64,000 nt of DNA from Vreelandella malpeensis (GTDB lineage: Bacteria > Pseudomonadota > Gammaproteobacteria > Pseudomonadales > Halomonadaceae), in assembly GCF_020622355.1 (NCBI RefSeq), contig NZ_WHVL01000001.1, positions 372,001 to 436,000 on the forward strand. The letters run 5' to 3'. Position numbers and translations under genes: made by a program. Below the pieces are notes generated by a model. That model was not told where the DNA came from. It ran no database searches and was given only the letters and a program-made list of their open reading frames with translations. The stretch's first letter is position 1; each line of letters begins with the position of its first letter. Shown here one piece after another: positions 2,246 to 20,675 of this stretch.

Positions 2246-2263
2246 TTGTCGTACATCATACAA
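2246..2263 (-). promoter_or_regulatory. Shared regulon operator, copy 1 (upstream of dctPQM)
   Basis: On the minus strand the site reads TTGTATGATGTACGACAA, an imperfect palindrome (TTGT...ACAA ends). It is 17/18 identical to the copy upstream of kdgD at 11165-11182. FadR-type GntR repressors of sugar-acid genes commonly bind sites of this size and symmetry; which protein binds here is inference. Confidence 0.7.
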
Positions 2264-2528
2264 GCTAATATCGTCAAATTAGCTAACAAGCGTTTGCGAA
2301 GCAAGCAATAAAAAGTCTAATAAGACCAAAGTCACACCTAAACTTCATAAACTAAAGTATATATATAAATAACCATGTATTTTTTAACAATAAAGATGGT
2401 TGCTTCAGTTTTGAGCACCGCATTTTTAAAAGTGATGAATCGTAGTCGATGATATTGATTTAAATTAGTCATAGTGAGAAATTATTATGTGGAAAAAATT
2501 TTCACTGAATTTAAATTCGAATAAATAA

Positions 2529-2560
2529 CCGTGTCACACTAATCAACCAGCGCGACACGG
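2529..2560 (-). terminator. Possible terminator after the yiaK-like gene
   Basis: A CCGTGTC / GACACGG inverted repeat (7 bp, 18-nt loop) is followed on the minus strand by TTATTTATT. The stem is short and the T tract interrupted, so this is tentative. Confidence 0.35.
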
Positions 2561-2670
2561 CATACGAAAACGGTCTGCTTGTTTGAAACAACTATCTAAC
2601 GCCTAACCTGCCCTGCCGACATCAGATGTCAAGACGAGAATTCGACGTTGATCCAGCAACCCCCGCCCTT

Positions 2671-3681
2671 CTATCGATGGGCCAGCTGGCTCACGCTCGC
2701 CCACAGCGTATCATCCAGCCTCAACACTCCCTGGCCATGTCGCTGGCGGTAGGTGGACTCGCCGGGATACCGAACGGGCTGCCCCGATGTGGCGGGCTCA
2801 GCAGCTGCGAGATGCTGCTTGATTCCTTCCACAATTGCGTCGCAAGTCGCTTGCCCGGCGATCTGCAACGGATCGAACACCATGAATATCTGACAGCTTC
2901 CACCACCACTGCCCTTCTCTACCTCATCGATGGCGTGGCTCGGCCGCCCGCTTGAAAGCAGTGCCGCCATCGCATCCAGCAGTATGGCGAGACCGGAGCC
3001 TTTCCAATAACCGGTCGGCAACAGTCGGCGCGTGGCAGCGATCGCCGCCGGATCGCGACTCAGCTCCCCTTGCATATCGAAACCACCGTCTACGGGCAGA
3101 GATTCACCCTTGGATGTCAGCGTCTGCAGTTTACCGTAGGAAAATTGCGACATCGCCATATCGAGCACCAGCGGCCCCTCTTCATGAGGCACGCCCATCA
3201 CGAGGGGATTGTTGCCAATGGATTGCGAAGTAGCTCCCCAAGCCGGCATGCACGACTCGGTATTGGTCCACATGATCGTGGCCATTCCCTTCTCGGCGGC
3301 GTGCCAGCCGTAACTGCCACCGCGCATCCAGTGGGTGGTGTTACGCAGCGCCACCAGCCCCATACCATGCTCTTTGGCAAGTTCGATGGCGCGCTCGGTA
3401 GCGTGAAGCGCATTGATGATCCCGATGCCCATATGCCCATCGAACACTTCGATCGCGCCCAGCGCATGCACGCGCTCCGGCACTGCTTTCACGTCGACCC
3501 ACCCCTTCTCGACATACTCGATGAAGCGTGGAATACGCCCGATACCATGAGAATGCACGCCGTCACGTGTGCTTTCAGCGTGCACCCGGGCGCATACCCG
3601 AGCATCCTCGGCCTCGAGCCCCGCCTTCAAAAGCGCTTTTTCGAGCGTATCGCGCAAGGTATCGAAACTGACCTCTGCCAT
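2671..3681 (-). CDS. yiaK: Ldh-family NAD(P)H oxidoreductase, YiaK-like 2,3-diketo-L-gulonate reductase
   Basis: A 336-residue member of the malate/L-lactate dehydrogenase (Ldh_2) family. Along its length it follows E. coli YiaK (332 residues), for example in SHGIGRIPRFIEYVEKGW, GLVALRNTTHWMRGGSYGW, LPVDGGFD and LPTGYWKGSG. YiaK reduces 2,3-diketo-L-gulonate to 3-dehydro-L-gulonate. In E. coli yiaK sits beside the YiaMNO TRAP transporter, and here it sits beside dctPQM, although 679 bp and a possible terminator lie between. The gene has its own leader with a strong Shine-Dalgarno (AAAGGAGG). The exact substrate could be another 2-oxo sugar acid. Confidence 0.8.
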   Translation of the reverse strand: MAEVSFDTLRDTLEKALLKAGLEAEDARVCARVHAESTRDGVHSHGIGRIPRFIEYVEKGWVDVKAVPERVHALGAIEVFDGHMGIGIINALHATERAIELAKEHGMGLVALRNTTHWMRGGSYGWHAAEKGMATIMWTNTESCMPAWGATSQSIGNNPLVMGVPHEEGPLVLDMAMSQFSYGKLQTLTSKGESLPVDGGFDMQGELSRDPAAIAATRRLLPTGYWKGSGLAILLDAMAALLSSGRPSHAIDEVEKGSGGGSCQIFMVFDPLQIAGQATCDAIVEGIKQHLAAAEPATSGQPVRYPGESTYRQRHGQGVLRLDDTLWASVSQLAHR

Positions 3682-3767
3682 AAAACCCTCCTTTATCTTG
3701 TAAACATTTCTTGTCTATGAAATCTGGTCGAAGGCAACCGACCAGAGTATCGCGACCGCGCGTCCCC

Positions 3768-3793
3768 AAAAAAGGCCACCCGAGGGCGGCCTT
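3768..3793 (-). terminator. Rho-independent terminator after KGSADH
   Basis: On the minus strand AAAGGCC, a GC-rich 10-nt loop, GGCCTTT and a run of six T in all form a classical terminator 34 bp after the semialdehyde dehydrogenase stop. It ends the kdgD-gudD-TTT-KGSADH operon. Confidence 0.8.
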
Positions 3794-3826
3794 TGATATC
3801 AACTACGCGTCGGGCAGGCGCCTGAA

Positions 3827-5404
3827 TTACTGTTCGCGCTTGCCATCCACCAGACGCCGCAGCTTGAGGGGGTTGTCGTTCTTGATCGCTTCGGGCAGCA
3901 GCCCTTCCGGCAGGTCCTGGTAGCAGACCGGACGCAAGAAGCGATAAATCGCGGCGGTACCCACTGACGTCGTGCGCGCATCGGAGGTGGCCGGGAACGG
4001 TCCGCCATGAACCATGGCGTCGCACACCTCGACACCGGTCGGCCAGCCATTGACCAGAATGCGACCGGCCTTGCGCTCGAGCGTGGGAAGAAGCGCACGC
4101 GCTGCGTCAAGATCGGCATCGTTCATTTGCAGCGTAGCGGTCAGCTGACCTTCTAGATGTTCGGCGACCTTCTTGAGTTCGGCCTCATCGACACATTCGA
4201 CCACCAGCGACGTCGAGCCGAAGACTTCGCCCTGCAGCGCTTCGCTGGAGAGGAAATCTGGGGCACTGGTCTTGAACAGGCCTCCCTGGCACTGATTGGG
4301 GCCTTCACCCTTCTGGCCGCGCGCCACTTCTTGCGCTTTGCCGCTCTCCTGGAGGCTTTGAACGCCCTGCTCGTAGGCTTCGAAAATGCCCGGCGTCAGC
4401 ATAGTCTGAGCACCACTTTGCGCAACGGCCTCGCCTGCGGTCTTGATGAAGGCATCAAGCTCGGGGCCCTTGATGGCGATCACCAGGCCCGGATTGGTAC
4501 AGAACTGGCCGGCCCCCATGTTGAGCGAACCCACGAATGCCTTGCCCATTTCCTCACCGCGCGACTTCAGCGCTGCCGGCAGCGCAAAGACCGGATTGAT
4601 CGAGCTCATTTCGGCGTAGAAGGGGATCGGCTCGGGACGCGACTGGGCGGCTTTCCATAGGGCAATGCCGCCGCTGCGCGAACCGGTGAAGCCAGCTGCC
4701 TTGATGCGAGCATCGCCCACCAGCGCGGTACCTACTTCACGGCCGGAACCGAACATCAACGAGAATACGCCCTCCGGCAGACCGCACTTCTTGACTGCGG
4801 CCTGGATGGCACGCCCCACCAGCTCACCGGTTCCCGGGTGCGCTGCGTGCGCCTTAACGATCACCGGGCAACCGGCGGCAAATGCCGACGCAGTGTCGCC
4901 ACCCGCCACCGAGAACGCTAGCGGGAAGTTGCTGGCACCAAAGACCACGACCGGACCCAGCGCGATGTGACGCTGGCGCAGATCGGCACGCGGCATCGGC
5001 TGACGGTCGGGCATCGCCGGATCGACGCGGACATCCAGCCATTCGCCGGCGCGTACGGTCTTGGCGAACATGCGCAGTTGGCCGCAGGTACGACCGCGCT
5101 CGCCCTGGATGCGTGCCTGGGGCAGCCCGGACTCCGCTACGGCGCGCTCGATGAGCGCATCGCCCAGCGCTTCGATTTCATCGGCGATGGTTTCGAGAAA
5201 CGTAGATCGATCTTCGAGCGACGTTTCGCGATAGCGATCGAAGGCTTCGCATGCAAGCTGACATGCTTGTTCCACATCGGCTTGAGTACCGCCAGCATAG
5301 CCGGGCTCCAATCGCTCGTTGGTCGCCGGGTTCATGGCATGAATGGGATCACGAGAGCCTTTGACGGCTTTCTGTCCGATCAGCATTTCACCTGTTAGAT
5401 TCAT
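3827..5404 (-). CDS. 2-oxoglutarate semialdehyde dehydrogenase (2,5-dioxovalerate dehydrogenase)
   Basis: Aldehyde dehydrogenase superfamily, 525 residues, of the hexarate-inducible KGSADH type. It oxidises 2-oxoglutarate semialdehyde to 2-oxoglutarate with NAD(P)+, the last step of glucarate/galactarate degradation. Visible features are the cofactor lysine in [14 protein letters not shown] (K184), the Rossmann motif FTGSRSGG (239-246), the general base in [10 protein letters not shown] (E265) and the nucleophilic cysteine in [10 protein letters not shown] (C302). It closes the operon after kdgD, gudD and tctCBA, 142 bp after tctA and just before a strong terminator. The context supports the specific function over a generic aldehyde dehydrogenase. 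Confidence 0.92.
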
Positions 5405-5546
5405 CTTGCCTCCTGCGATGAGAATGTTGCCCGGCGGGACGATTACCCAGCCAGGTACCCCGTATCAATATCAGCAACTTTGCACTTGACGCCATGTTGC
5501 CGATATCGACAGTGACACCGCACACTGTCAGGTGCCGTGATGGCGA

Positions 5547-7061
5547 TCAAACGCTGTCGTCGCCGGCGGGTGTGCTTTGTTGGTTTGAGCGATAGTTCTG
5601 CCACAAGGTTAGTGCCAGTAAGCCGATCGCTACGATCAGAAAGGCGACGCTGATCGGTCGTGTGAAAAACGGCGTCCAGTCGCCTTCGAAGGATTGAAGG
5701 CCTCGACGCAGATTGGACTCGGCGATCGGCCCTAGAATGAGCCCGAGAATGACAGGCGCGGTACCGAAGTTGTAACGATTGAGGAAATAGCCCAGCACCC
5801 CGAAGCCAAGCATCAGGTAGAGGTTGAAGACATCCCCATCGACACCGTAGACCCCGATGAAACAGAATACCAGTATGGCGGCCAGGAGCTGTTTACGCGG
5901 TACCATCAGCACGCGAATGAACAGCTTGATGCCCAAGCACATGATCAAGAGCATGAACACGTTAGCCAGCAGGTAGGCTAAAAAGATGCCGTAAACGGTG
6001 CCGCTTTGATCAGCGAACAGCAAGGGGCCCGGTGTGATTCCCTGGATCATAAGACCACCCAGCAATACTGCCGTGGCCGCTTCCCCCGGAATACCGAGTG
6101 CTAGTGTCGGAATGAGTGCCCCACCCAGCAGTGCGTTATTGGCGCTTTCGACGGACACGATACCTGGCGCGTGACCGGTACCGAACTTCTCCGGCGTTTT
6201 CGAGAAGCGTCGTGTCTGGTCATAAGCGACCAGCGAAGCGATGCTCCCGCCGGCGCCGGGAATGGGGCCCACGATCGAGCCGGAGATCACCCCCATCATG
6301 ACGGCTTTCCAGTGTTTCAGGGTTTCGATAAAGCGGGGACGCGCAATATCGATCCGATGACCACTCTCTTTCAATCGCTCGTTGGGATCGTATTCGAAGG
6401 TATCCTTGAGCACCTGAGAAACCGCGAAAAGGCCGATGAGCGCGGGTAACAGGTTGACCCCGGTCAAAAGCGATAGCTCGTTGAACGTGAAACGTCCCAC
6501 GCCAGTGATCGGGTCGGTACCGATCGTCGAGACAAGAAAGCCGATCATGCCGGCGATCAGCCCCTTGAGCAGCGACTTGCCTGCCACAGACGCGATGATG
6601 ACCAGGCCGAAAATGCTCAGCGAGAAGTACTCTGCCGGGCCAAAGCGTAGCGCAAATTCGGCAATGGGCGGTGCCAGCAAGCTGAGAATGACCATGCTGG
6701 CAACACCGCCGAAGAAGGATGCCACGATGGCCAGGCCTAGCGCCCGTCCGGCTTCGCCTTTCTGCGCCATCGGGAAACCATCGAAAGTGGTCGCCACTGA
6801 CGAAGGCGTTCCCGGAATATTCAAAAGAATGGCGGGGATCGAGCCACTGGCACCGGCGCCGCATAGAGCGCCCAGCAGCATGCCGATACCCGCTACTGGC
6901 GGCATGCCGAAGGTCACCGGCAAAAGCAGCGCGATGGCCATGGCCGAGGTCAACCCCGGCAGCGCGCCCATGACGATACCCAAGAGCGTTCCGCCCGCGA
7001 TCGCTAGCAGAGTGCTCAGCTGCAGCACCATTCCCAGGCCGTCGAGATAACCGGAAATCAT
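5547..7061 (-). CDS. tctA: TTT transporter large membrane subunit TctA (system A)
   Basis: A 504-residue polytopic protein of the TctA family, the 12-TM channel subunit of tripartite tricarboxylate transporters. The repeated family motifs are visible: GALPGLTSAMAIALLLP near residue 32 and GPIPGAGGSIASLVAYDQTRRF near 260, each a G-x-x-PG loop, plus IPGEAATAVLLGGLMIQGITPGP. It lies 34 bp after tctB. Because it sits between glucarate dehydratase and KGSADH in one operon, its substrate is more likely glucarate or another aldarate than citrate. Confidence 0.92.
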   Translation of the reverse strand: MISGYLDGLGMVLQLSTLLAIAGGTLLGIVMGALPGLTSAMAIALLLPVTFGMPPVAGIGMLLGALCGAGASGSIPAILLNIPGTPSSVATTFDGFPMAQKGEAGRALGLAIVASFFGGVASMVILSLLAPPIAEFALRFGPAEYFSLSIFGLVIIASVAGKSLLKGLIAGMIGFLVSTIGTDPITGVGRFTFNELSLLTGVNLLPALIGLFAVSQVLKDTFEYDPNERLKESGHRIDIARPRFIETLKHWKAVMMGVISGSIVGPIPGAGGSIASLVAYDQTRRFSKTPEKFGTGHAPGIVSVESANNALLGGALIPTLALGIPGEAATAVLLGGLMIQGITPGPLLFADQSGTVYGIFLAYLLANVFMLLIMCLGIKLFIRVLMVPRKQLLAAILVFCFIGVYGVDGDVFNLYLMLGFGVLGYFLNRYNFGTAPVILGLILGPIAESNLRRGLQSFEGDWTPFFTRPISVAFLIVAIGLLALTLWQNYRSNQQSTPAGDDSV

Positions 7062-7095
7062 GTAAGCCTCCTGAATCTCAAATTAGGTTATACGG

Positions 7096-7602
7096 TCACG
7101 TCGGGAGCGGAATCTTGAAAAGGTCGGTGAAGACGTAAAAAATCGTCACGGCAAGCACGACCGAAAAAACCAGTGCTCCCGCGAGCGCCTTGCTCTTTAC
7201 GGCGGTGGAAAGCGTGCCCCAGGTACCGCTTAGTACTGTAAGTCCAACGACGCAGGAAAAGGTGAACAGCGCCGTACTGATCATGTAGCCAAGCCGTTCG
7301 AAGGCGTAGACATAAGCGATCAACAACAGGATGACAAAAAGCCATTGGCTCGCGCCGCGAACGAGGCTGATAGAGGATGACGACACGGCCTGGCCGCCCT
7401 TTCGCCACTCTTGGAAATCCTTGATCAGACACGGGATGGCCAAGATGAAGATCAGCCCCGAAAGAAACTTTGGAAAGAAGGCAGCCGATAGGTCGCCCGG
7501 AATATTGACGTCGGGAAACGCTGATGCCGCGACAAATACACTCGCCGATACGATGATCAGCACAACATTGAATAAAGGCTTACCGATATCGCGTTGCGTC
7601 AT
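7096..7602 (-). CDS. tctB: TTT transporter small membrane subunit TctB (system A)
   Basis: A 168-residue protein with four predicted hydrophobic segments and poor sequence conservation, as usual for TctB. Its identity rests mostly on size, topology and position between tctC and tctA. It begins with a short hydrophilic tail, MTQRDIGKP, and is needed with TctA to form the membrane complex. The 89-bp tctC-tctB gap contains an imperfect hairpin. Confidence 0.85.
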   Translation of the reverse strand: MTQRDIGKPLFNVVLIIVSASVFVAASAFPDVNIPGDLSAAFFPKFLSGLIFILAIPCLIKDFQEWRKGGQAVSSSSISLVRGASQWLFVILLLIAYVYAFERLGYMISTALFTFSCVVGLTVLSGTWGTLSTAVKSKALAGALVFSVVLAVTIFYVFTDLFKIPLPT

Positions 7603-7691
7603 GTTAGCTGGTCACTCCCTAGCCAAATGAGTAGCCTCCGAAACAATCGCGCTGCCGGCAAGACCTGCCAGACAGCACGAGAGAGCTAGAC

Positions 7692-8630
7692 TTAGTTCGC
7701 CAAATCGCCCGCCGCTTCACGCATGGTAGCGGCCGACTCGTCGATGAAGGCTTCGAGCTCATCGCCGTAAAGCGGTGCAAGCTCAGTCCCCAGGTTGTTC
7801 GCCGTCTGCTCGTAGGAGCCATCCTCGACGATCTGCTGGATAGCGGCGACCCACTCCTTTTTCACCTCGTCAGGCAGGCCTTTCGGACCGGCGATGCCAC
7901 GCCATACGGTCAGCGTCAGGTCGTAGCCGGACTCCTGAAACGTCGGTACGTCGGGCAGGCTGTCGCTACGCTCGGCGTAGGTGGTGGCCAGCGCCTTGAG
8001 TCGACCTGATTCCAGCGCAGAGCGCAGTTCGGCACCACCCAGCACGACGGCTTCGACGTGTCCGCCCATCGCGGCCGACATCGCCTCCGAGCCACCAGGA
8101 TACGGAATCAGATTGAAGGTGGACTCGGTGCGGTTAGCAATCGCATTGGCCGCGATGTGGGCCGATGAACCTACGCCTGAGGCCCCCACGCGGACCGAGC
8201 CCGACTGAGCAGCCTCGACCAGGCTTTCGATATCCTGATAGGGGCTTTCGCTGCTTACCGCGATCAGGTAGGGCTCTTCGATGAGCTTGGCGATGAAGTC
8301 GAAGTCGTCGTGGGTAAATGGTACGGTGCCCATCGCCTCGAGGGTCAGCATCGCGTTGCTCGCGGCCAGCAGCGTGTAGCCATCGGCCGGTGATGCCACG
8401 GCACGCGACATGCCTACCGCCCCGCCGCCACCGGCGATGTTGCGGATGACCAGCGTGGTGTCCAGTTGCTCTTCCACCAGCGGCTGAAGTGCACGAACGA
8501 ACGTGTCGTTACCGCCGCCGGCCGAGAAAGGCACGATCATGTCGACGTTCTTCGTCGGGTACTCAGCGAAAGCTTGACCAGCGACGATGCAACCAATAGC
8601 GAGCGTGAAACCACCTAGTAGCTTTTTCAT
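7692..8630 (-). CDS. tctC: TTT transporter periplasmic substrate-binding protein TctC (system A)
   Basis: A 312-residue TctC/Bug-family binding protein. The ATG at 8630 (MKKLLGGFTLAIGC...GQAFA) is preferred over the upstream in-frame start because it opens a normal signal peptide and has AGAGGT upstream. The mature N-terminus carries the Bug signature VDMIVPFSAGGGNDTFVR, and AGGGGAVGMSRAVASPADGYTLL follows, covering the loops that bind the carboxylate. It follows gudD by 71 bp and shares that gap with an 8-bp hairpin. Substrate inferred to be glucarate or a related aldarate from the operon. Confidence 0.92.
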   Translation of the reverse strand: MKKLLGGFTLAIGCIVAGQAFAEYPTKNVDMIVPFSAGGGNDTFVRALQPLVEEQLDTTLVIRNIAGGGGAVGMSRAVASPADGYTLLAASNAMLTLEAMGTVPFTHDDFDFIAKLIEEPYLIAVSSESPYQDIESLVEAAQSGSVRVGASGVGSSAHIAANAIANRTESTFNLIPYPGGSEAMSAAMGGHVEAVVLGGAELRSALESGRLKALATTYAERSDSLPDVPTFQESGYDLTLTVWRGIAGPKGLPDEVKKEWVAAIQQIVEDGSYEQTANNLGTELAPLYGDELEAFIDESAATMREAAGDLAN

Positions 8631-8661
8631 TATTGATCTACCTCTTACTCGGGCTTTAGAA

Positions 8662-8689
8662 GCCGGGCACCGCGCACGCAATGCCCGGC
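8662..8689 (-). other. Intercistronic hairpin between gudD and tctC
   Basis: GCCGGGCA and TGCCCGGC (8 bp, 12-nt loop) lie between the gudD stop and tctC. No T run follows, so it more likely protects the tctC message from decay or sets relative expression than ends transcription. Confidence 0.5.
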
Positions 8690-8701
8690 CGAACTTAAAG
8701 T

Positions 8702-10042
8702 CTAGCGAACAAGCGCGGGGCGCTTGGGATCGAAGGTCCAGCCGTCGATCAGATACTGCATGGCAGTCGCATCGTTGCGTCCGCCGGCAGGCAGGCTGCG
8801 ATAGAGCTCATGCGCCTTCTCTATCTCGGCCATGTCGATCTCGACGCCGAGCCCGGGCGCATCGGTCACCGCTACCTGGCCGTTCTTGATCTGAGGCGGA
8901 TTGCGGGTCAGACGCGCATCGCCTTCCTGCCAGATCCAGTGGGTATCCAACGCGGTTGTACGGCCCACGGCGGCAGCACCTACGTGGGCGAACATCGCCA
9001 GCGAAATATCGAAATGGTTGTTGGAGTGGGACCCCCAGGTCATGCCATGATCCTGGCACAGCTGCGAGACGCGAACCGCGCCGGACAGGGTCCAGAAATG
9101 TGGATCCGCCAGCGGGATATCGACCGAGCGCAGCATCAGCGCATGGGCCATTTCACGCCAGTTGGTCGCGACCATGTTGGTGGCCACGGGCAAGCCGGTG
9201 GCGTGGCGGAACTCGGCCAGAACTTCGCGTCCGGAAAAGCCCTGCTCGGCACCACACGGGTCCTCGGCGTAGGCGATCACGCCACGGAGATCCTTGCAAA
9301 GCGCAATCGCCTCCTGCAGCGACCAGGCGCCGTTGGGGTCGATGGTCGTGCGCGCCTCGGGGAACGCCTTGTGCAGCGCCTTGACCGCCTCGATCTCCTG
9401 CTCACCGGGTAGCGCCCCGCCCTTGAGCTTGAAATCCTTGAAGCCGTAGCGATCCTGGGCCGCCTGGGCGAGCTCGACGATACGCTGAGGGGTCATCGCG
9501 GCTTCGTCGCGCTGACGGTACCAGTCGTGATCGAGCCCTTGGGTGCCGCGACGAAACTCCATCGGGGTGGCGTGGCCGTCACCGATGAAGAAGAGATAGC
9601 CCAGCACGTCCACGTGATCGCGCTGACGACCGTCGCCCAGCAAATCGGCCACCGGCACGCCCAAAAACTTGCCCATCAGGTCGAGCAGCGCGGCTTCGAG
9701 TGCCGCCACGGCGTTGACGCGCAGCTCGAACGTCCAGGAACCCTTGCCGAAATCCTCGAAATCCGCGCTGCGACCGGCCTTGTTCAAGGTATTAACCATT
9801 GCGCGCAGCTTGCCGATGGGTTGGCCCATCACCAATTCGCGGGCCTGCTCGAGGGATTGCTGAATGGTATCGCCACCGGGCGCTTCACCGACTCCAACGT
9901 TTCCGGCGCTGTCCTTGAGAATGACCAGATTACGAGTAAAGAACGGAGAGTGCGCGCCGCCGATATTGAGCAACATGCTGTCGCGCCCGGCAACCGGGAT
10001 GACGCGCATTTCAGTGATGGTGGGCGTGTTGTGGCTTGGCAT
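8702..10042 (-). CDS. gudD: Glucarate dehydratase
   Basis: Enolase-superfamily glucarate dehydratase, which dehydrates D-glucarate (and L-idarate) to 5-keto-4-deoxyglucarate. The 446-residue length equals E. coli GudD. Motifs include the KLKGG lysine pair, TIDPNGAW and AEDPC metal ligands, ATNMVATNW and [13 protein letters not shown] with the catalytic histidine. The ATG at 10042 is chosen because GGAG lies 6 nt upstream; the longer reading adds residues foreign to the family. It is the second gene of an operon starting with kdgD. A second, diverged copy is at 14464-15789. Confidence 0.94.
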
Positions 10043-10101
10043 GAACGTCTCCATCAGTCTATCGACACATAGGCCCTTATTATCAGAACACTCAAGTGGA
10101 A

Positions 10102-10117
10102 CCCGCACGCGTGCGGG
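10102..10117. other. Perfect 16-bp palindrome between kdgD and gudD
   Basis: CCCGCACGCGTGCGGG lies in the 105-bp kdgD-gudD gap. As RNA it forms a short GC-rich hairpin without a T run; an intercistronic stability element or protein-binding site is possible. Confidence 0.45.
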
Positions 10118-10147
10118 CTCGACTTGCAAGGTCTCGAGAAAGAACGA

Positions 10148-11065: not shown

Positions 11066-11164
11066 TGGAAACTCCTCTTGTTCGATTAACGGACCATCAA
11101 GACCGGCAAGCCCATGACCGCCTGGGCACTCGCCGAAAGCATCGATAGGGATATCCCGACAATA

Positions 11165-11182
11165 TTGTCATACATCATACAA
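11165..11182 (-). promoter_or_regulatory. Shared regulon operator, copy 2 (upstream of kdgD)
   Basis: Reads TTGTATGATGTATGACAA on the minus strand, the most symmetric of the four copies. It sits 100 bp upstream of kdgD. Confidence 0.75.
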
Positions 11183-11315: not shown

Positions 11316-12821
11316 TCAAAACTCCTTGGTGACCGCAACCCGCTTCTTTCGCACGGCGGAGATAATCGACCAGACGATTAGCGCTGCTATCATGGCAAAG
11401 AAGGCCGCGCTTACTGGTCTCTCCAGGAAAACCATCAGATCCCCTCGGCTGAGCAGCATGGCGCGACGAAAGTTCTCCTCCATCATTGGCCCGAGAATGA
11501 AGCCCAGAAGCAAGGGCGCGGGCTCGAATCCCAATAGCAAGAACACGCAACCGACAACACCGAACAGGGCCACCAGCATGATGTCCAGATCGGAATAATT
11601 GATGCTGTACACGCCGATGACGATGAACAGAATGATCGAGGGGTACAAGATGGGATAGGGGATCCTGAGCAGTCGCACCCAAAGCCCCACCATCGGAATG
11701 TTGAGAATCAAGAGCAGTACGTTACCGATCAAAAAACTGATCACCAGCCCCCAGAACAGGTCCGGGTTATCGGAAATCACGTTGGGCCCCGGGGTAATAC
11801 CGTGGATCAGCAGCGCCCCCAGCATGAGGGCCATGACCGCATCCCCCGGTATGCCGAGCGTCAAGGTGGGAATGAATGCCGATTGAGCGGCGGCGTTGTT
11901 GGCGCTTTCAGGAGCGGTAATGCCCTCAATGGCGCCCTTGCCGAATTTTTCCGGGTTCTTCGATACTTTCTTCTCTACTGCGTAGGCGATGAACGACCCG
12001 ATGGACGTGCCCGTGCCCGGCAATATGCCGATGCCCGTACCGATACCCGTCCCTCTCAACATGGGAAAAATGCTCTGCTTGAGGTCGCTCCGAGTGGGCA
12101 ACAGCGACCTGAACGTGATCTTCTGATCACTTTTGACTTGGATGACCTTGCCCACGTTGGCCATGACCTCGGTGACGCCAAAAATGCCCATGGCGATTGC
12201 CACGATGTTGAGGCCGTCGTAAAGAAACGTCAAACCGAAGGTGTAGCGCTGAATGCCGGTGCTCACGTCGGTACCCACGATACCCAGCAACAGGCCGAAC
12301 ACGACGGCGGCCAGGCCTTTTGCGGGGTTTCCCTGAACGAGGATGGCCGCCGCCACGAGCCCGAGCAGCATCATGGAGAAATAGTCGGCGGAGTTGAACG
12401 CGACCGCGAAATCCGCCAGGGGGGGAGCAAAGGCCGCCAGTACGACCACCGTGATCAGGCTTCCCACGAAGGATGCGATGGTGGTCATGAACAGCGCAAC
12501 GCCGGCACGCCCTTGCTTGGTCATCGGGTAGCCGTCCAGGCAGACCACCGATGACGACGGAGTGCCCGGCAGATTCAGCAATATGGCCGCGGTGGAGCCC
12601 CCGTACTGGGCGCCATAATAGATCCCCGCCAGCATGACCAGCGCCGTCGTCGCCGGTACGTAATAGGTCAGCGGAAGCAGCATGGAAATGGCGGCCAGGT
12701 GCCCTACCCCGGGAATCACGCCGATCAGCATGCCGATCGTCACGCCCAGCGCACAGTACATGAGGTTCTCGATCGTGAACGCGACCGAGAACCCCAGTGC
12801 CAGGTTATTGAGAATTTCCAT
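11316..12821 (-). CDS. tctA: TTT transporter large membrane subunit TctA (system B)
   Basis: A 501-residue TctA-family protein. The start at 12821 (MEILNNLALGF) has GGAG 6 nt upstream and overlaps the tctB stop by one base (TGATG), a sign of translational coupling; the longer reading would run deep into tctB. Family loops are VIPGVGHLAAISMLLP near residue 37 and ILPGTGTSIGSFIAYAVEKK near 264. It forms a stand-alone tctCBA unit between the two aldarate operons. Since the unit carries the same operator, its substrate is inferred to be an aldarate or related acid. Confidence 0.92.
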   Translation of the reverse strand: MEILNNLALGFSVAFTIENLMYCALGVTIGMLIGVIPGVGHLAAISMLLPLTYYVPATTALVMLAGIYYGAQYGGSTAAILLNLPGTPSSSVVCLDGYPMTKQGRAGVALFMTTIASFVGSLITVVVLAAFAPPLADFAVAFNSADYFSMMLLGLVAAAILVQGNPAKGLAAVVFGLLLGIVGTDVSTGIQRYTFGLTFLYDGLNIVAIAMGIFGVTEVMANVGKVIQVKSDQKITFRSLLPTRSDLKQSIFPMLRGTGIGTGIGILPGTGTSIGSFIAYAVEKKVSKNPEKFGKGAIEGITAPESANNAAAQSAFIPTLTLGIPGDAVMALMLGALLIHGITPGPNVISDNPDLFWGLVISFLIGNVLLLILNIPMVGLWVRLLRIPYPILYPSIILFIVIGVYSINYSDLDIMLVALFGVVGCVFLLLGFEPAPLLLGFILGPMMEENFRRAMLLSRGDLMVFLERPVSAAFFAMIAALIVWSIISAVRKKRVAVTKEF

Positions 12822-13267
12822 CAGAAACTCCAGGGAAAAAGGCGTATGGGCATGTTGAGGCTCAGGATGAACACCAGATACGACATGCCACACAGTGCCA
12901 GGGCCAGCATACCAAGCCTTACCGGCTGGAATCGACGTTCGCTGAGACCACAAAGGTAGACCAGGGAGATCGTCGCCAGGAAAAGGCCCGCCGGGCGCAT
13001 CAGCAGGGCGAACACCACGATGCCCGTTGTGATGCAGATCAGGGCCCGGTAATTCAGCGACGGGAACGCCATGGCCGTTCGTGCGGAGAAGACCATGGTG
13101 ATCACGCCGAGCACGGCCAGAGAAATACCGAGAAACCGGGGCAGATAGCCTGGCCCCATGTTTCTCAATGTGCCCATGTCATAAGCGTAGGCCTGCCAAA
13201 GCACCAGCGACGCTATGAGAAGGCATGCCAGTCCTGCCAGGAAATCCCGGTTGACTCTCGTGTACAT
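12821..13267 (-). CDS. tctB: TTT transporter small membrane subunit TctB (system B)
   Basis: A 148-residue, four-segment hydrophobic protein with the TctB start MYTRVNRDFLAGLACLLIAS and an RNMGPGYLPRFLG loop after the first helix, a feature often seen in TctB. Its stop overlaps the tctA start by one base. Identity rests on the loop, topology and position. Confidence 0.88.
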   Translation of the reverse strand: MYTRVNRDFLAGLACLLIASLVLWQAYAYDMGTLRNMGPGYLPRFLGISLAVLGVITMVFSARTAMAFPSLNYRALICITTGIVVFALLMRPAGLFLATISLVYLCGLSERRFQPVRLGMLALALCGMSYLVFILSLNMPIRLFPWSF

Positions 13268-13296
13268 GGTGTATATCTCGCATCACGGAGGACAGC

Positions 13297-13318
13297 ACCC
13301 TACCTTCGCAAGGCAGGG
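13297..13318 (-). other. Intercistronic hairpin between tctC and tctB (system B)
   Basis: CCCTACCTT and AAGGCAGGG form a short stem with one mismatch around a 3-nt loop in the 80-bp gap. Comparable hairpins occur at the tctC-tctB gaps of systems A and C. Confidence 0.4.
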
Positions 13319-13347
13319 CATCGGTGGATTCATGCTCGAGACCATCG

Positions 13348-14322
13348 TTACTGACGAATACCCGCGCTTTCGATGAAGCTTGCAAGCTCGCTCTTTTGCT
13401 CGCTCATCCAGGCCTTGAGCTCATCCGGGGAGGCGGAGGGCCGGGCCTGACCACCCTGCTCTGCAATCCGCGCCCGGATCTCTTCATTGGCAAGCACGGT
13501 GGCGAGTTCCGTCTGCAGGCGCTCGACGATCTCGGGCGGGCTGCCGGCGGTCACCAGGATGCCCTGGTAGGTGCCATCGAGATCGCCGGGAAGCCCCAAC
13601 TCACGAAACGTGGGTACGTCGGGCAGCTCGTCAAGGCGCTCCTCGCCGGTTACGGCCAGCGCGTTCATCTGACCGCTCAGCACGAAAGGCAGCGATGCCG
13701 TGGTGCCGTTGAGCAGCATGTCGCTTTCCCCGGACACGACGGCTCGCGTGGCATCGGAGCCACCGCGGTAGGCAATCACGGTCCAGTCCAGATCCTGGTC
13801 CTGAATCAATCGCTCCGTTGTGATGTGATTGTTGGCCCCGACCCCGGAGGTCGCCATCGAGAGCTGGCCGGGGTTTTCGCGAGAAAACGCCACCAGTTCG
13901 TCGAAGCTCGAGAAGTCGTTGTTCTGCGAAACGCCTAATACGTAAGGGGAGTAGGACACCATCGTGACGGGGGCCAGATCATTTTCGATATCGTAGGCGA
14001 CGCTAGGCAGTACGCTCGGGGCCGCCAGTAGCGCGGTGAGATCGGACAGCAGCAACGTATGTCCATTGGGGTCGGCCTTTGCCACGAAGTCCGCGCCGAT
14101 ATTACCTCCCGCCCCGGCCTTGTTTTCCACGATGACCGGCTGGCCGATCGCGTCGGAAAGCTCCGGCGCTATGTAGCGGGCCAGAATGTCGGACGTGCCG
14201 CCCGGCGCGAATGGAACGACGATACGCACCGGGCCTCTGAACTCCTGGGCCAGGGCCACATTGCCTGCCAGCAGCAGTGAAAGAGAGGTGGCACTGACGA
14301 GAAACGTATTGATCTTGTTCAC
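13348..14322 (-). CDS. tctC: TTT transporter periplasmic substrate-binding protein TctC (system B)
   Basis: A 324-residue Bug-family binding protein with a signal peptide (MNKINTFLVSATSLSLLLAG...ALA) and the signature RIVVPFAPGGTSDILARYIAPELS, followed by VIVENKAGAGGNIGADFVAKADPNGHTLL. Translation starts at a GTG with GGGGT upstream. It leads the tctCBA unit; the shared operator copy at 14380-14397 is 58 bp upstream. Ligand unknown, inferred to be a sugar acid from the regulon. Confidence 0.92.
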   Translation of the reverse strand: MNKINTFLVSATSLSLLLAGNVALAQEFRGPVRIVVPFAPGGTSDILARYIAPELSDAIGQPVIVENKAGAGGNIGADFVAKADPNGHTLLLSDLTALLAAPSVLPSVAYDIENDLAPVTMVSYSPYVLGVSQNNDFSSFDELVAFSRENPGQLSMATSGVGANNHITTERLIQDQDLDWTVIAYRGGSDATRAVVSGESDMLLNGTTASLPFVLSGQMNALAVTGEERLDELPDVPTFRELGLPGDLDGTYQGILVTAGSPPEIVERLQTELATVLANEEIRARIAEQGGQARPSASPDELKAWMSEQKSELASFIESAGIRQ

Positions 14323-14379
14323 TATTATTACCCCAAGTTATTGATGTTATCGGGTTCAGAAAAGCTTATTAAAGGTCAT

Positions 14380-14397
14380 ATGTATTTAATCATACAT
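14380..14397 (-). promoter_or_regulatory. Shared regulon operator, copy 3 (upstream of tctCBA system B)
   Basis: Reads ATGTATGATTAAATACAT on the minus strand. The outer ATGTAT/ATACAT arms are perfectly symmetric and the ATGTATGAT half matches the copy at 20658-20675. The centre is more diverged than in the others, so confidence is lower. Confidence 0.6.
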
Positions 14398-14463
14398 ATA
14401 CACGTTAGCGGCCGTTCCACGCCTTGAACATACGACATAAGTCCACTCGTTTACCGGCGTCGC

Positions 14464-15789
14464 CTAGCGCACCAGTGCAGGACGCTTGGGATCGAAGGTC
14501 CAGTCCGGAATCAGGTACTGCATCGCCATGGCGTCGTTGCGCTGGGTCACATCCAACGATTTATAGAGCTGATGCGCCTGATTGAGCTTGGCCTCGTCGA
14601 GTTCGACGCCCAGGCCCGGGGTGGTCGGCACCTTCAGCGTGCCCTCGCGAATCTGGAACGGATCCCGGGTGATGCGCTGGCCGTCCTGCCAGATCCAGTG
14701 GGTGTCGATCGCGGTGATCTCTCCCGGGCAGGCCGCGGCGACGTGGGTCATCATGGCCAGTGAAATATCGAAGTGGTTGTTGCTGTGAGACCCCCAGGTC
14801 ATGCCCCACTCGTTGCAAAGCTCCCCGACCATGACCGCGCCCTGCATGGTCCAGAAGTGGCAGTCCGCCAACGGAATATCGACCGCGTTGAGTTGGGTGG
14901 CGTACTGCAGCTGTTTGAAGTCGGTGGCGATCATGTTGGTCGCGGTGGGCAGCCCCGTGCGCTTCTTGAACTCGGCCATGGTTTCGCGCCCGGAGTAGCT
15001 CTCCTCCTGGCCACAGGGGTCCTCGGCGTAGCTGAGCAGGTGCTTGATCGGCTCGAGTACGCGCACCGCTTCGTCGAGAGTCCAGGCACCGTTGGGGTCG
15101 AGCGTCAAGCGCGCCTCGGGAAAAGCGTCGTTGAGCGCGCGGATGCAGTCGGCCTCCTCCTCGCCTCTGAGCACCCCGCCCTTGAGCTTGAAGTCCTTGA
15201 AGCCGTAGCGATCGAACGCGGCCTTGGCGAGATTGGCCACCGCCTCCGGCGTCAGCGCCTTCTGGTAGCGCACCTCGTCCCAGGCATCGACCGGGTCGCT
15301 CGCCTTAGGGTAGGGCAAATCCGTCTTGTCCGGGTCGCCGAGCAGAAACAGATAGCCAAGTGCTTCGACTTCGTCGCGCTGGCGACCGTACTGGCCCAGC
15401 AGGTCCGCCACAGGAAGGCCAACCGTCTGGCCGTAAAGATCCAGCAGCGCCGACTCGAGCCCGGTGATGACGTGAACCGCCACGCGCAGATCGAAGGTCT
15501 GGCGGCCGCGCTCTTCGCGTCCGTTTTTCGAAAGCGCCACGCGGGCGCTGTTCAGCGTGTGCTTGAATGCGTTGATGGTAGAGCCTTCCACAATAGCGCG
15601 GCACTGCTCCAGCCCCTTGAGAATCCCTTCGCTTGAGGGGATTTCACCGACGCCCTGATTGCCGGCGCTGTCTTCCAGAATCACGACACAGCGAATGAAC
15701 CAGGGCGCGTGACCGCCGCTTAGGTTGAGCAGGAACCCATCGTAGCCGGCAACCGGCACCACTTTCATCGACGTAATCTTGGGAAACAT
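14464..15789 (-). CDS. gudD: Glucarate dehydratase-family enzyme, second copy
   Basis: A 441-residue enolase-superfamily protein with the complete glucarate dehydratase motif set: DFKLKGG with K201 and K203, TLDPNGAW (D231), SYAEDPC (E256), ATNMIATD (N285) and [15 protein letters not shown] (H335). It lacks the N-terminal extension of the first copy and has a different 85-95 region. It is last in the tctCBA-garD operon, 61 bp after garD. In E. coli GudX is a near-inactive relative, but here all catalytic residues remain, so an active enzyme, perhaps with another stereo-preference (idarate, galactarate epimers), is likely. Confidence 0.9.
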
Positions 15790-15850
15790 GGCGATAGCTC
15801 TCTTGTCGTTTAGCGCTTTTGCGTTGTTGATGCGTTTTAAAGGCGGCAGC

Positions 15851-17419
15851 TCAGGTCACCGGCGCGGGATTGAACAGCACCAGGTCGTTGTGGATGCCGA
15901 GCCGGTCCGCGGCGGCCTGTTTGCGCCCGCTGGCAACGTCGAGGATCAGGTGGAAAAGCTCCCAACCCAGATCCTCGATGGTGGCCTCGCCGGTGGCGAT
16001 GCGCCCGGCGTCAAGATCGATGATGTCATGCCAGCGCTTGGCCAGATGCGAGTTGGTCGCGACCTTGAGCACCGGCACCATGGCAAGCCCGTAAGGCGTG
16101 CCCCGCCCGGTGGTGAAGACCTGCAGGTTCATGCCGGCAGCCAGTTGCAACGTGCCGCAGATGAAATCACTGGCCGGTGTGGCGGCGAAGGTCAGCCCCT
16201 TGCGGCGCAGCCGTTCACCCGGGCCGATGACATCGACGATCGGCGAGTTGCCGGACTTGATGACCGAGCCCAGCGCCTTTTCCACCACGTTGCTCAAGCC
16301 CCCCTTCTTATTGCCCGGCGACGGGTTGGCGCTGCGATCCGCCTGGCCCTGAAGCAGGTAGTCGTCGTACCAGGACATCTGGTCAATCAGCGCCTGGCCG
16401 ATCTCACGATCGACGGCGCGCGGCGTGAGCAGATGGATGGCATCGCGTACCTCGGTGACTTCCGAAAACATGACGCTGCCGCCGGCACGCACGATCAGGT
16501 CCGTGGCAAAGCCCACCGCCGGGTTGGCGGTCACGCCGGAAAAAGTGTCGCTGCCGCCGCACTGCATGCCCACGGCCAGCTCCGAGGCCGGACAGGTTTC
16601 GCGGCGTCGCTTGTTCAAGCGCTCCAGGTGGCGCTCGGCCATGGCGAGAATGCCCTCGACCATCTCGCCAAAACCCTCGAAGCTCTCGTCCTGCAGGCTC
16701 AGCACGTTGGCATCCGGGTCGGCGGCCTCGGTGTTTTCATAAATCTTCACCGGGCGGTCTTCGAGCAGTGTCGACGGCTGGAGCTTTTCACAACCAAGGC
16801 CGATCACCATGATCTCGTTGCCGAAGTTCGGGTTCAGCGCGATGTTCCTGAGCGTACGGATGGGTACGATCGCCGCCGGCGCGTTGATCGCCACCCCGCA
16901 CCCGTAGCTGTGGTTGAGCCCGACCACGTCGTCGACGTTGGGGAAACGCGGCAACAGCTCGCGCTTGATGCGTGCGACCACGTACTCCACGGTGCCGGCC
17001 ACGCACTGAACGCTGGTGGTGATTCCCAGCACGTTCTTGGTGCCTACACTGCCGTCCGGATTACGAAAGCCCTCGAAGGTGTAGCCTTCGAGCGGCGCCT
17101 GGGCCGGCGGCCGGCGAGTCGCCAGCGGAAGCTCGGAAAGCGCCGGGGCCGTCGGCAGGCGCACGTTGTGCTCGTTCACGTGCGCGCCTCGCTCGATGGC
17201 GGTGACCGCGGTGCCGATCACCTCGCCGTAACGCAGGATGTCATCGTTTTCCTTGATCGGCTCAAGGGCCACCTTGTGCCCCTGAGGGATCGGCATCAGC
17301 GTCGTGCACGACTCGTTGATTTTTACCCCTTCGGCCAGACCGTCGTGCTCGATCACGATGGCGACGTTATCGCTTGGGTGAACCTGAATGACGCGTGAGT
17401 TAGCCGTTGGTTGAGTCAT
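15851..17419 (-). CDS. garD: Galactarate dehydratase
   Basis: A 522-residue UxaA/GarD-family dehydratase, matching E. coli GarD (523 residues) throughout: [67 protein letters not shown] and [14 protein letters not shown]. It dehydrates galactarate (meso-galactaric acid) to 5-keto-4-deoxyglucarate, feeding KdgD in the neighbouring operon. It starts with ATG inside the end of tctA (20-bp overlap), so it is translationally coupled to the transporter, which ties that TTT system to galactarate. Confidence 0.96.
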
Positions 17420-18962
17420 GACGCTTTCCTGCAGTGGTGTTCGAAGGGGTATGCATCTGGCTCAACTCCATTTTCTGGCGAGCGCGCGATTTGAACCCCA
17501 TGGCGATCGCAAACAGCACCGACGCGGCGATCAGCGCCCAGAGCACCAGGGCGATCGGGCTCTTGGTGAAGAAGATGGAATAGGTGCCGAAGGATTCGAG
17601 GCTCTTGACGAAGTAGACCTCTGCCTGGCTTCCCAGGATGAACCCGATGATCAGCGGCGCGACTTCCAGGCCGATCTTCTGAATCAGATAGCCCAGCACG
17701 CCGAAGATCAGCAGCGTCCAGACATCGAACATGATGCCGTAGTTGATCGCGTAGGCCCCTACCACGCACATCATGACGATAAGCGGATAAAGGATGTGCT
17801 TGGGTACCATGACCACCTTGGCGATATGCTTGATGGCGAAGAACATCAGCACGAACATGACGAAGTTCGCCAGCACCAGCGCCGTCATCATGATGTACCA
17901 GGTCTCGTGGTTTTCCGGAATGAACAGCGGCCCCACCTGTATCCCTTGAAGGGTAAAGGCACCGATCAGCACGGCGGTGGTGGCATCCCCCGGGATCCCC
18001 AGCGACAGCAAGGGAATGAGCGCCCCACCGGTCAAGGCATTGTTGGCGGATTCCGAGGCGATCAGCCCTTGGGGGGCACCCTTGCCCATTTGCGAGGAGT
18101 CCTTCGCCAGGTTCTTCTCCTGGGTATAGGCGAGTACCGACGCCGCACTCCCCCCCACGCCCGGCAGCATGCCGACGAAGGTACCGATGAAGGAGGATCG
18201 GGTGAGGTTGGTGAGACTGCCCTTGAACGTGGACAAGGAAAATCGACCGGACGCGCCGATCTTGACACGTTCGCCGGCGACGTCGCGCTTCACGCCCTTC
18301 TCCGCCTCCAGCAAGATGGTGGAGATCCCGAAGATACCGATCAGCACCGGCAGCAGCGAAAAGCCCTCGAACAGGTACGGCTCCATGAAGTCGAACATCA
18401 AACGGGTATGACCATTGCCACCATCGGAAATGCTGTAGTCCCCGATCAGGCTGAGCCAGATGCCGATGACACCGCTGAAGATGCCAATCAGCATGCTGTT
18501 GGACAGCGAGGCGATGACGCTCAGGGCGAGCAGGATGATCAAGAATTTCTCGACATAGGAGAACTTGATCGAGAAATCCGCCAGCAGCGGTGCGAACAGA
18601 AACAGCACCGCAGCGCTGATGAGCCCGCCGATGACCGAGGCGATCACGCAGATACGCAGCGCCTTTTCTCCCTCGCCCCGACGCGCCATGGGGTAGCCAT
18701 CGAAGGTGGTGGTGATGGAAGACGGCGTACCGGGAATATTGAGCAGCACCGCCGGCACCATGCCGCCGGAAATACCCCCGACATAGAGCCCCAGCAGCAG
18801 CGCCAGCCCGTTATTCAGGCCAAGCGCATAGGTCAGCGGCAAACACACCGCCACTGCCATGGTGGCCGTCATGCCGGGAATCGCGCCGAAGATGATGCCA
18901 ACCAGCGTGCCGAAGCCTACGAGCAGGAAAAACGAAACATCGAGAACAGACAGAAATTCCAT
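17400..18962 (-). CDS. tctA: TTT transporter large membrane subunit TctA (system C)
   Basis: A 520-residue TctA-family protein; [18 protein letters not shown] at 18962 is the family-like start, while the longer reading overlaps tctB. Conserved loops [17 protein letters not shown] and [20 protein letters not shown] are present, as is [25 protein letters not shown]. Its last 20 bp overlap garD. The direct coupling to galactarate dehydratase makes galactarate (or glucarate) the best guess for the substrate. Confidence 0.92.
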
Positions 18963-18979
18963 AGCGGTACCCGCCTCGG

Positions 18980-19414
18980 TTACGGCAGTGTGATGGTGAA
19001 GAGCTTGGCGAGCACGAACCAGGCAAGGCTTGGCGCGACCACGGCGTTGACGACAACGATGACCAGTGCTTTCTTCGTCCAATCATGCAGGTAAAGCAGC
19101 GACATGCAGAGCACGAAGGCCATCGAGACGAACAAGAAGCCGTAGCCCGTGTAGGGAAACAGGTCCCCCACTATCGCCATCAAGGCGAAGTACGCCGGGA
19201 TCAGGGCCAGGGTGGCGAAAAAGCGCAGGTTGTCCCGGGACTCCGAGACGATAGGCAAGGCACGCTCGCCGCGTTTGACCGCTGCCAGGAAAGGGGCGAC
19301 CTTGGTGATCAGGATCAAGGCCAGCAAGCCTCCCAGGATCCAGTGCACGAGAGTGGGAAAGAACAGATGTGACGTTTCGAAGTCGATCGAAACGTCAAAC
19401 AGATCAGACGCCAT
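18980..19414 (-). CDS. tctB: TTT transporter small membrane subunit TctB (system C)
   Basis: A 144-residue protein with four hydrophobic segments and an extended hydrophilic N-terminus (MASDLFDVSIDFETSHLFFP). It is 17 bp upstream of tctA and 71 bp after tctC. As usual for TctB there is little motif evidence; the assignment rests on size, topology and operon position. Confidence 0.82.
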   Translation of the reverse strand: MASDLFDVSIDFETSHLFFPTLVHWILGGLLALILITKVAPFLAAVKRGERALPIVSESRDNLRFFATLALIPAYFALMAIVGDLFPYTGYGFLFVSMAFVLCMSLLYLHDWTKKALVIVVVNAVVAPSLAWFVLAKLFTITLP

Positions 19415-19437
19415 ATCCGCTCCAGAAATAGTGACGT

Positions 19438-19479
19438 GGCACGCCCTCGTTGCCGCCTGAACACCGGGGCGGGCGTGCC
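19438..19479 (-). other. Intercistronic hairpin between tctC and tctB (system C)
   Basis: GGCACGCCC and GGGCGTGCC form a perfect 9-bp stem in the 71-bp gap, immediately downstream of tctC. No T run follows on the minus strand. It could stabilise the tctC message so that binding protein exceeds membrane subunits. Confidence 0.5.
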
Positions 19480-19485
19480 GGACGC

Positions 19486-20541
19486 TTAGTTGATGTTGTC
19501 GATGATCTCTTGATAGCGAGACATCTTTTCCTGGAGGTAATCGGAAGCCTCTTGAGAGGGTTTGAAATCAGGAATGAAGAACGCGCTCAACTGGGCCTCC
19601 TGGATATCGCCCTCGGCGTAGATCGCCTCGAGCGCCTCGTCGATCTGATCGACAATGCCCTGATCCATCTCCTTGTTGTAAAGGAAGAAGAACTCCTTAT
19701 CGAAGGTGAAGTTCTCGTCATCGCCCATGGTGACGGTGACGTTGGGCTCGACGTACTCCAGAAGCTGATCGCGAGTGGTCTGACCCAGCCCCTCTTCCGG
19801 TGCCTGCTCGATGGTGTCCTGACGCGCGGTCAACCAGACGAAACGCATCGCTTTCTGGTCGCTTTCGGGCAGGCGGGTATACTGCTCGTTGGCCTGCACG
19901 CTACCGTTGATGACATCGGCCTGACCGTCGAAGAGCTGCTGGTTCTTGTCGGACTGGGAGCCGGTGTTGACCGCGACCAGATTGTCCTCCTGGCCCGGAT
20001 GCTCGATAGCGATCGCGTTCTTGAGCGCACTGAAGCCGATTTCCGACACCCCACCCGGCTGTATGGCAACGCGCACGGTTTCACCGCTGCCCACCGCCTC
20101 TATGATGTCATCCAGGCTCTGGTACGGGGAGTCCATGGGCACCAGATAAGCGTTGCCCGGGTTGATGGCGATGGTCGGGCCGATGGTGTATTTCTCAAAG
20201 ATGTCGTCGTAGCCCTGAACGCCGTACAGATGCCCCAGGTAAGACTGGTCGTGGAAGATCATCAGAGTATTGCCCCGAGAGTCCCGATCCAGCGTGCGAA
20301 ACGCGGAACTTGCGCCCACGGCGTCGACCTTCATGTTGACACCCAGGTGCTCGGCCAGGCGGTCGACCACGATGCTGGCGTTCTGATAGGTATCGCCACC
20401 GGTAGAGGTCGAGCCGATCACGACGCGAACGTTGCCGCGAAGCTGGGCGTCCTGGGCCATGGCGACACTGGAGCCTAGGGTGGCCCCCATCATGGCAGCG
20501 GCGACACTGACGTTCATCAGCGTTTTTCTGGATAGCAGCAT
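19486..20541 (-). CDS. Divergent TctC-like periplasmic binding protein (system C)
   Basis: A 351-residue secreted protein placed exactly where tctC is expected. The start at 20541 (MLLSRKTLMNVSVAAAMMG) has AAAGG 7 nt upstream; an upstream ATG at 20562 adds 7 residues but is poorly spaced. The signal peptide ends near SVAMAQ. It lacks the usual VPF-x-x-GG-x-D signature of TctC, having RVVIGSTSTGGDTYQNAS instead, and is about 35 residues longer than average. The fold is probably the same, but ligand contacts are likely different. It heads the tctCBA-garD-gudD operon; the shared operator is 117 bp upstream. Confidence 0.78.
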   Translation of the reverse strand: MLLSRKTLMNVSVAAAMMGATLGSSVAMAQDAQLRGNVRVVIGSTSTGGDTYQNASIVVDRLAEHLGVNMKVDAVGASSAFRTLDRDSRGNTLMIFHDQSYLGHLYGVQGYDDIFEKYTIGPTIAINPGNAYLVPMDSPYQSLDDIIEAVGSGETVRVAIQPGGVSEIGFSALKNAIAIEHPGQEDNLVAVNTGSQSDKNQQLFDGQADVINGSVQANEQYTRLPESDQKAMRFVWLTARQDTIEQAPEEGLGQTTRDQLLEYVEPNVTVTMGDDENFTFDKEFFFLYNKEMDQGIVDQIDEALEAIYAEGDIQEAQLSAFFIPDFKPSQEASDYLQEKMSRYQEIIDNIN

Positions 20542-20657
20542 AAGCTTACCTTTAGCGTTCATTGTGAGTTATAGCCTTTCGGAACGACTTTTCGGCGCGC
20601 GACTCGCAAAGACGGCAACCGATTGCTGGCGGTTCGCGTATTACCCTGCTCAGGTAT

Positions 20658-20675
20658 TGGTAATACATCATACAT
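20658..20675 (-). promoter_or_regulatory. Shared regulon operator, copy 4 (upstream of tctC system C)
   Basis: Reads ATGTATGATGTATTACCA on the minus strand. The 12-base core TGTATGATGTAT is identical to the copy upstream of kdgD. Confidence 0.72.

Follow-up and report, generated by a model that had tools for sequence, protein, structure and literature searches.

Four operator-like sites and a GntR regulator gene

The window analysed here is a stretch of 64,000 nucleotides from Vreelandella malpeensis (contig NZ_WHVL01000001.1, positions 372,001 to 436,000; genome coordinates C9:372001-436000). Its left part carries four runs of minus-strand genes for the uptake and breakdown of sugar acids, headed by closely similar 18-bp sequences. 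These four sequences, and a gene for a GntR-family regulator lying just past the left edge of the window, are the subject of this analysis. The first-pass annotation had placed the sites on the minus strand, 255, 100, 58 and 117 bp before dctPQM, kdgD and the tctC genes of two transporters, systems B and C. Re-reading the sequence returned the same letters at the same places, with four matches in the window, and the distances proved correct; the last is counted from an ATG at 20541, and from the longest-frame start at 20562 it becomes 96 bp. Scores in the list below are from a position weight matrix (PWM).

2246..2263, minus strand: site 1, TTGTATGATGTACGACAA; 255 bp before dctP; FadR-type core GTACGAC; PWM 26.8
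11165..11182, minus strand: site 2, TTGTATGATGTATGACAA; 100 bp before kdgD; core GTATGAC; PWM 34.0
14380..14397, minus strand: site 3, ATGTATGATTAAATACAT; 58 bp before tctC of system B; without a FadR core; PWM 23.3
20658..20675, minus strand: site 4, ATGTATGATGTATTACCA; 96-117 bp before tctC of system C; core GTATTAC; PWM 29.5

The common pattern WTGTATGATGTATKACAW, with up to three mismatches allowed, matches the 64-kb window four times against 0.01 expected, and none of 100 shuffled sequences held four or more matches. Searched at the same tolerance, the whole genome (3,607,821 bases) yielded the same four matches, all confined to 18.4 kb, and no others, and the reversed-pattern control gave zero. 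Many random sites genome-wide, which the first-pass annotation had named as grounds for abandoning the idea, were thus not seen at this tolerance. Site 3 is the outlier and the weakest of the four, with three mismatches to the pattern and a better outer dyad.

The genome encodes 17 GntR proteins of the FCD type. None of their genes lies inside C9:372001-436000, a negative that covers the FCD type and no other family of transcription factors, but one is found 4,318 bases to the left of the window's first base:

C9:366964-367683 (L022:12465-13184), minus strand: putative GguR-type GntR/FCD regulator, 239 amino acids; Pfam FCD 1.6e-22, GntR 1.9e-18

The earlier claim that no matching regulator is present in the window is therefore literally true for FCD-type GntR genes, and the regulator seemed to be missing because the window stops about 4.3 kb short of its gene. 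The first-pass annotation had also proposed a FadR-type GntR repressor encoded elsewhere. The type is borne out by Pfam and by the family-wide association described below; the location is not, since the gene sits in the dctPQM gene run itself. In order of transcription, this run comprises dctP, dctQ, dctM, gci, gli, udh, the GntR regulator (gguR), an aldehyde dehydrogenase and an Ldh2-type dehydrogenase. A 384-bp AT-rich gap separates gci from gli (L022:15076-15459; genome C9:369575-369958) and contains one weak motif-like match with a score of 9.0.

Membership of the GntR/FadR-FCD group is well above threshold for both domains (PF00392 66.3 bits, cut-off 27; PF07729 80.7 bits, cut-off 24.3), with an N-terminal GntR winged helix followed by a C-terminal FCD domain. 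Scores against the NCBIfam models all stayed below their cut-offs (NanR 119/260, ExuR 110/396, UxuR 106/442, LldR 108/311 and PdhR 86/330 bits); NanR is the top-scoring of these models, yet below cut-off as well. Histidines 155, 205 and 227 of the FCD domain are invariant among 19 aligned homologues, and residues of this kind are metal ligands in FCD proteins. A plasmid search for the regulator returned no match at E <=1e-40. By name, the best 80 of 380 relatives of the locus belong mostly to Halomonas, Vreelandella, Chromohalobacter, Salinicola, Kushneria and Billgrantia; the top one is Halomonas sp. 707D7 (99% over the regulator).

Some 90 bp ahead of gguR there is a degenerate site, TCGTCATATGTATGATAA, with a PWM score that falls within the shuffle range. 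A similar stretch precedes gguR in two relatives' regions (L109 and L110), and autoregulation of gguR through this degenerate sequence is possible. In some relatives, two GguR homologues occur in or near one cluster (L100:196-912 and L100:15739-16452; contig C7 of genome G142), a pairing which raises the question of site sharing between them.

Association of sites and regulator across the family

The motif was recovered independently of the letters noted earlier. Twenty regions were taken from 20 relatives picked among regulator-positive genomes; 18 of them had a site already listed by place, and L109 and L110 had none. The regulator is present in 17 of these stretches, the other three ending before it, and all 20 carry a site (<=2 mismatches) immediately before a kdgD gene. 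An expectation-maximization search was then started without any prior pattern. Its input, 124 upstream regions of the 20 relatives and the own genome, left out stretches shorter than 60 bp, regions with N and those of the inner transporter genes (tctA, dctQ, dctM, gli); the same motif came up in 45 of the 124. The resulting PWM was run on 81.5 kb of the own genome and on the FCD loci. In the 81.5 kb, the four sites score 34.0, 29.5, 26.8 and 23.3 and the next match 9.7, with top scores of 4.6 to 15.7 in ten Markov shuffles. The values of sites 2, 3 and 4 are partly circular because these three belong to the training set; site 1 stood outside it.

The family sample comprised 151 genomes from 24 genera. 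Of these, 98 genomes of 17 genera have a homologue of the regulator (E <=1e-30), and 92 genomes of 15 genera have a site with at most one mismatch; the reversed pattern was found in 0 of 151. Site and regulator occur together in 92 genomes, the regulator alone in 6, the site alone in none, and neither in 53. Four of the six regulator-only genomes have only weak homologues (34-42% identity), and when homologues of at least 47% identity are counted the distribution becomes 90 with both, 2 with the regulator only and 2 with the site only. The sites also lie close to the gene. Judged from 150 listed positions out of a longer set (the genome counts come from the full per-genome table), 105 sites are within 30 kb of the regulator, and 97 of these 105 are upstream on its strand. 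Of the named regulator loci, that is the best 80 of 380 relatives, 66 have a site (<=2 mismatches) in the flanks examined, and the reversed pattern has none.

These observations make it highly probable, at about 0.92, that a GguR-type regulator (GntR, FadR/FCD subfamily), encoded downstream of dctPQM-gci-gli-udh in the run headed by site 1, uses the four sequences as its operators. Several points weigh against this reading. Two site-positive genomes have only weak GguR homologues (37 and 39%), and two with good homologues lack a site at up to one mismatch. Fourteen of the 80 named loci are without a site at up to two mismatches in the flanks examined, and 45 of the 150 listed sites are remote: 34 sit on a contig other than the regulator's, and 11 share its contig at a distance above 30 kb. 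The pattern at up to three mismatches is unspecific in relatives, where 144 of 151 genomes match it and the reversed control matches in many. Genome counts are not independent, because the genomes are related, and co-occurrence does not tell a regulator from the enzymes of the same cluster; the regulator was picked over them because it is the sole transcription factor recognised in the cluster's gene runs, in which not every small frame was searched. The FadR-type core is missing from site 3, and a scan of the region for sigma-70-like promoters gave 7 matches against 6.6 expected, none overlapping a site. The gap between gci and gli could possibly house a second promoter for gli-udh-gguR, and the sign of GguR action may be either, repression or activation.

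A different assignment would let another of the 17 FCD-type proteins, encoded far off, read the sites, with the udh-linked GntR protein answering to something else. Action in trans is common among GntR regulators, and a control FCD regulator (C9:330401) is likewise associated with the sites (both 84, control only 37, site only 8, neither 22; Fisher p 3.9e-5), more strongly so when its stronger homologues are counted (74/14/18/45, p 3.8e-12). Such an association is expected from common ancestry and genome content. The sites nevertheless track the udh-linked regulator (92/6/0/53) more tightly than this control, which stands for one of the 16 others: the control is absent from eight site-positive genomes, GguR from none. 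Moreover, in a scan of all 17 FCD loci, each about 3.4 kb long, the best motif-like PWM score fell at the GguR locus, though at 9.2 it is weak and within the shuffle range. We regard a distant FCD protein as an improbable reader of these sites.

Still less credit can be given to the idea that the 18-mers are shared by descent, through operon duplications that copied upstream regions, and are not operators at all. The cluster does hold duplicated genes (three Tct systems, two gudD and two aldehyde dehydrogenases), but the 18-mer precedes different genes (kdgD, dctP, gudD and tctC) and occurs, amid differing gene orders, in 15 of the 24 genera sampled. Chance similarity of AT-rich 18-mers has the least to recommend it. 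Taken alone, a weak palindrome of this length is nothing rare, and the three-mismatch pattern is noisy in relatives; against this stand the four matches in the window where 0.01 were expected, the restriction of the genome's four matches to 18.4 kb, and the presence of one-mismatch sites in 92 of 151 genomes with none for the reversed pattern. On these window, genome and family counts against their controls, a chance origin was rejected.

Gene runs and comparison with known regulons

The four sites head the following gene runs, the first of which extends past the window edge:

1..1991, minus strand: gene run 1, part in the window; dctP, dctQ and the start of dctM (open reading frames, Pfam)
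C9:364227-372000 (L022:9728-17501), minus strand: gene run 1, part left of the window (open reading frames, Pfam, PDB relatives)
2671..11065, minus strand: gene run 2; kdgD, gudD1, tctC, (tctB), tctA, aldehyde dehydrogenase, Ldh2-type dehydrogenase (open reading frames)
11316..14322, minus strand: gene run 3; tctC-tctB-tctA, system B (open reading frames; TctC by Pfam, tctA and tctB named from the first-pass annotation and position)
14464..20562, minus strand: gene run 4; tctC, (tctB), tctA, galactarate/altronate dehydratase-like garD, gudD2 (open reading frames, Pfam)

In run 1, gci encodes an enolase-superfamily protein, gli an amidohydrolase and udh an SDR dehydrogenase. The closest solved structures are 4ggb for the enolase, 4mup for the amidohydrolase, 3ay3 and 3rft for the SDR protein, and 4p1l/4p3l for DctP. 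Of these, 3rft carries the name uronate dehydrogenase; we take 4ggb to be galactarolactone cycloisomerase (Gci), 4mup galactarolactone isomerase (Gli), 3ay3 the Chromohalobacter uronate dehydrogenase, and 4p1l/4p3l presumably a Chromohalobacter hexuronate-binding TRAP protein. Judging from these relatives, dctPQM is most likely a hexuronate transporter (UxuPQM), and the genes of run 1 together most likely form a hexuronate operon (UxuPQM, Gci, Gli, Udh) in which the regulator of the entire set is included. Operon continuity and transporter substrates are inferred throughout. The first-pass annotation had spoken of an aldarate island; genes for aldarate uptake and breakdown are indeed there, but this scope is too narrow, because the uronate dehydrogenase relative and the likely galactarolactone enzymes of the dctPQM run extend the set to hexuronates plus aldarates.

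For the downstream steps, kdgD passes the KdgD model (383 bits, cut-off 374) as well as PRK13260 (376 bits, cut-off 316). Against the glucarate dehydratase model, gudD1 scores 725 and gudD2 688 bits, both below the cut-off of 829. The pairing of aldehyde dehydrogenase with Ldh2-type dehydrogenase is present in two copies: one follows gguR (L022:9728-12416), and the other closes the kdgD run (window 2671-5404). Beside the cluster, on the minus strand at window 20909-22654, there is a long frame that by eye resembles a thiamine-diphosphate-dependent pyruvate oxidase; no site with up to three mismatches precedes it.

The TctC-like protein of system C (window 19486-20562, minus strand) is 68-83% identical in 11 relatives. 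It matched no Pfam family (at E <=10, one chance match with E 0.17) and no PDB relative at E <=1, and its AlphaFold model has a mean predicted local distance difference test score (pLDDT) of 41. By profile comparison, ordinary TctC proteins are its relatives (probability 98.7, E 1.9e-16), which makes it a divergent Tct binding protein.

The gene content has a close published counterpart. A novel GntR regulator named GguR is described from Halomonas strains HL-48 and HL-93, where it controls a galactarate/glucarate operon with TctABC, and a further GguR-regulated operon with Udh, Gli, Gci and UxuPQM is described for HL-93 (Leyn et al. 2017, PMC5507952). The TctABC assignment is repeated in a review (PMC5812351). 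The set reported here shares the GntR regulator and the galactarate/glucarate operon with TctABC with both strains, and Udh, Gli, Gci and UxuPQM with HL-93; it differs in having three Tct systems and four sites (PMC5507952). At this locus, a GntR gene is linked to udh, gli, gci and UxuPQM, and to gudD, garD and kdgD with TctABC, which is the gene content of a GguR regulon. The regulon is therefore likely of the GguR type, ordinary and well conserved, its regulator being likened to the published GguR by gene content, not by sequence. A study by Bouvier et al. from 2019 (J Bacteriol 201(2)) on hexuronate regulons in Proteobacteria deals, by its title, with the same pathways and reportedly covers GguR.

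Shape of the operator and proposed mode of regulation

The consensus of the sites is W-TGTATGA-TGTATKA-CAW. The first-pass annotation had stressed both the strong similarity of the four sequences and their symmetry as one 18-bp palindrome. The similarity holds, all four matching a single pattern, site 3 with three mismatches; the symmetry is weak, sites 1 to 4 having 5, 5, 6 and 4 of 9 dyad pairs. A dyad at the middle of the 18-mer was matched by 1314 of 20000 column shuffles, and the best dyad over all centres by 11015 of 20000. The shuffles give a proper 18-bp palindrome no support, its best dyad being no better than that of shuffled columns. What stands out is a 7-bp direct repeat, matched by only 407 of the 20000 shuffles.

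A local dyad of four pairs at position 13 was equalled in 175 of 10000 shuffles when only that centre counted, and in 2950 of 10000 when the best centre anywhere was taken. Because this statistic is not distinctive over all centres, the core was called from the published FadR consensus. FadR-subfamily operators have a core GTM-N0-1-KAC and weaker half-sites 7-12 nt from the centre (PMC4494728). A core GTM-N-KAC at position 10 (positions 10-16, GTATKAC) is present in 36 of the 45 de novo sites and in three of the four window sites, and 1.3% of 100000 permuted consensus strings hold a GTM-N0-1-KAC core. The upstream TGTATGA fits the half-site distance given in PMC4494728, whose text lacks the words glucarate, galactarate, hexuronate, Halomonas and GguR; the shared features are the core and the weaker half-site. 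The supposed 18-bp palindrome is better read as a 9-bp FadR-type core, TGTATKACA, with a half-site 7 bp upstream.

A bolder and rather doubtful proposal is that the operator is a compound one, in which the 9-bp core and a half-site exactly 7 bp upstream form a 7-bp tandem repeat (TGTATGA-TGTATKA), extended to triple runs in some relatives, so that overlapping GguR dimers would bind asymmetrically and cooperatively as in NanR, rather than one dimer sitting on an 18-bp palindrome. E. coli NanR is described as binding GGTATA repeats asymmetrically (PMC8012715). On this proposal, the two systems would share a FadR-subfamily GntR repressor, tandem repeats and asymmetric binding, and they differ in repeat unit, spacing and pathway, the present regulator scoring 119 bits against the NanR cut-off of 260 (PMC8012715). 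Triple runs account for three of the 76 sites in named loci. In relatives' regions, at L096:2979-3003, L104:10499-10523 and L105:10643-10667, two overlapping sites 7 bp apart give three tandem WTGTATG units.

The following course of regulation is proposed. As long as no substrate is present, a GguR dimer would occupy the FadR-type core TGTATKACA (site positions 9-17) and keep the four operons from being transcribed. When hexuronates or aldarates enter the cell, an aldarate (glucarate or galactarate) or an intermediate would bind the FCD domain and free GguR from DNA. Derepression would then allow hexuronate uptake by UxuPQM and oxidation to the aldarate by Udh, Gli and Gci. The three Tct systems would take up aldarates as well, and GudD, GarD and KdgD would convert them to 2-oxoglutarate. 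Repression of the four operons by GguR with release by an aldarate is most likely, since FCD family membership and the logic of the pathway, in which hexuronates and aldarates converge at the aldarate, both point to it. The sites, the gene, their genome-wide and family-wide association and the gene content are observed; binding, repression and effector are predicted.

The analysis confirms a known type of regulon and modestly refines the shape of its operator, and so holds no surprise for the field. It illustrates that a regulator encoded nearby can seem to be missing when the window stops short of it, and it assigns a regulator to what had seemed an orphan operator set. For the biology of this bacterium, the prediction is that one GntR protein would co-regulate the entry of hexuronates, their oxidation to aldarate, three Tct transporters and the breakdown of aldarates.

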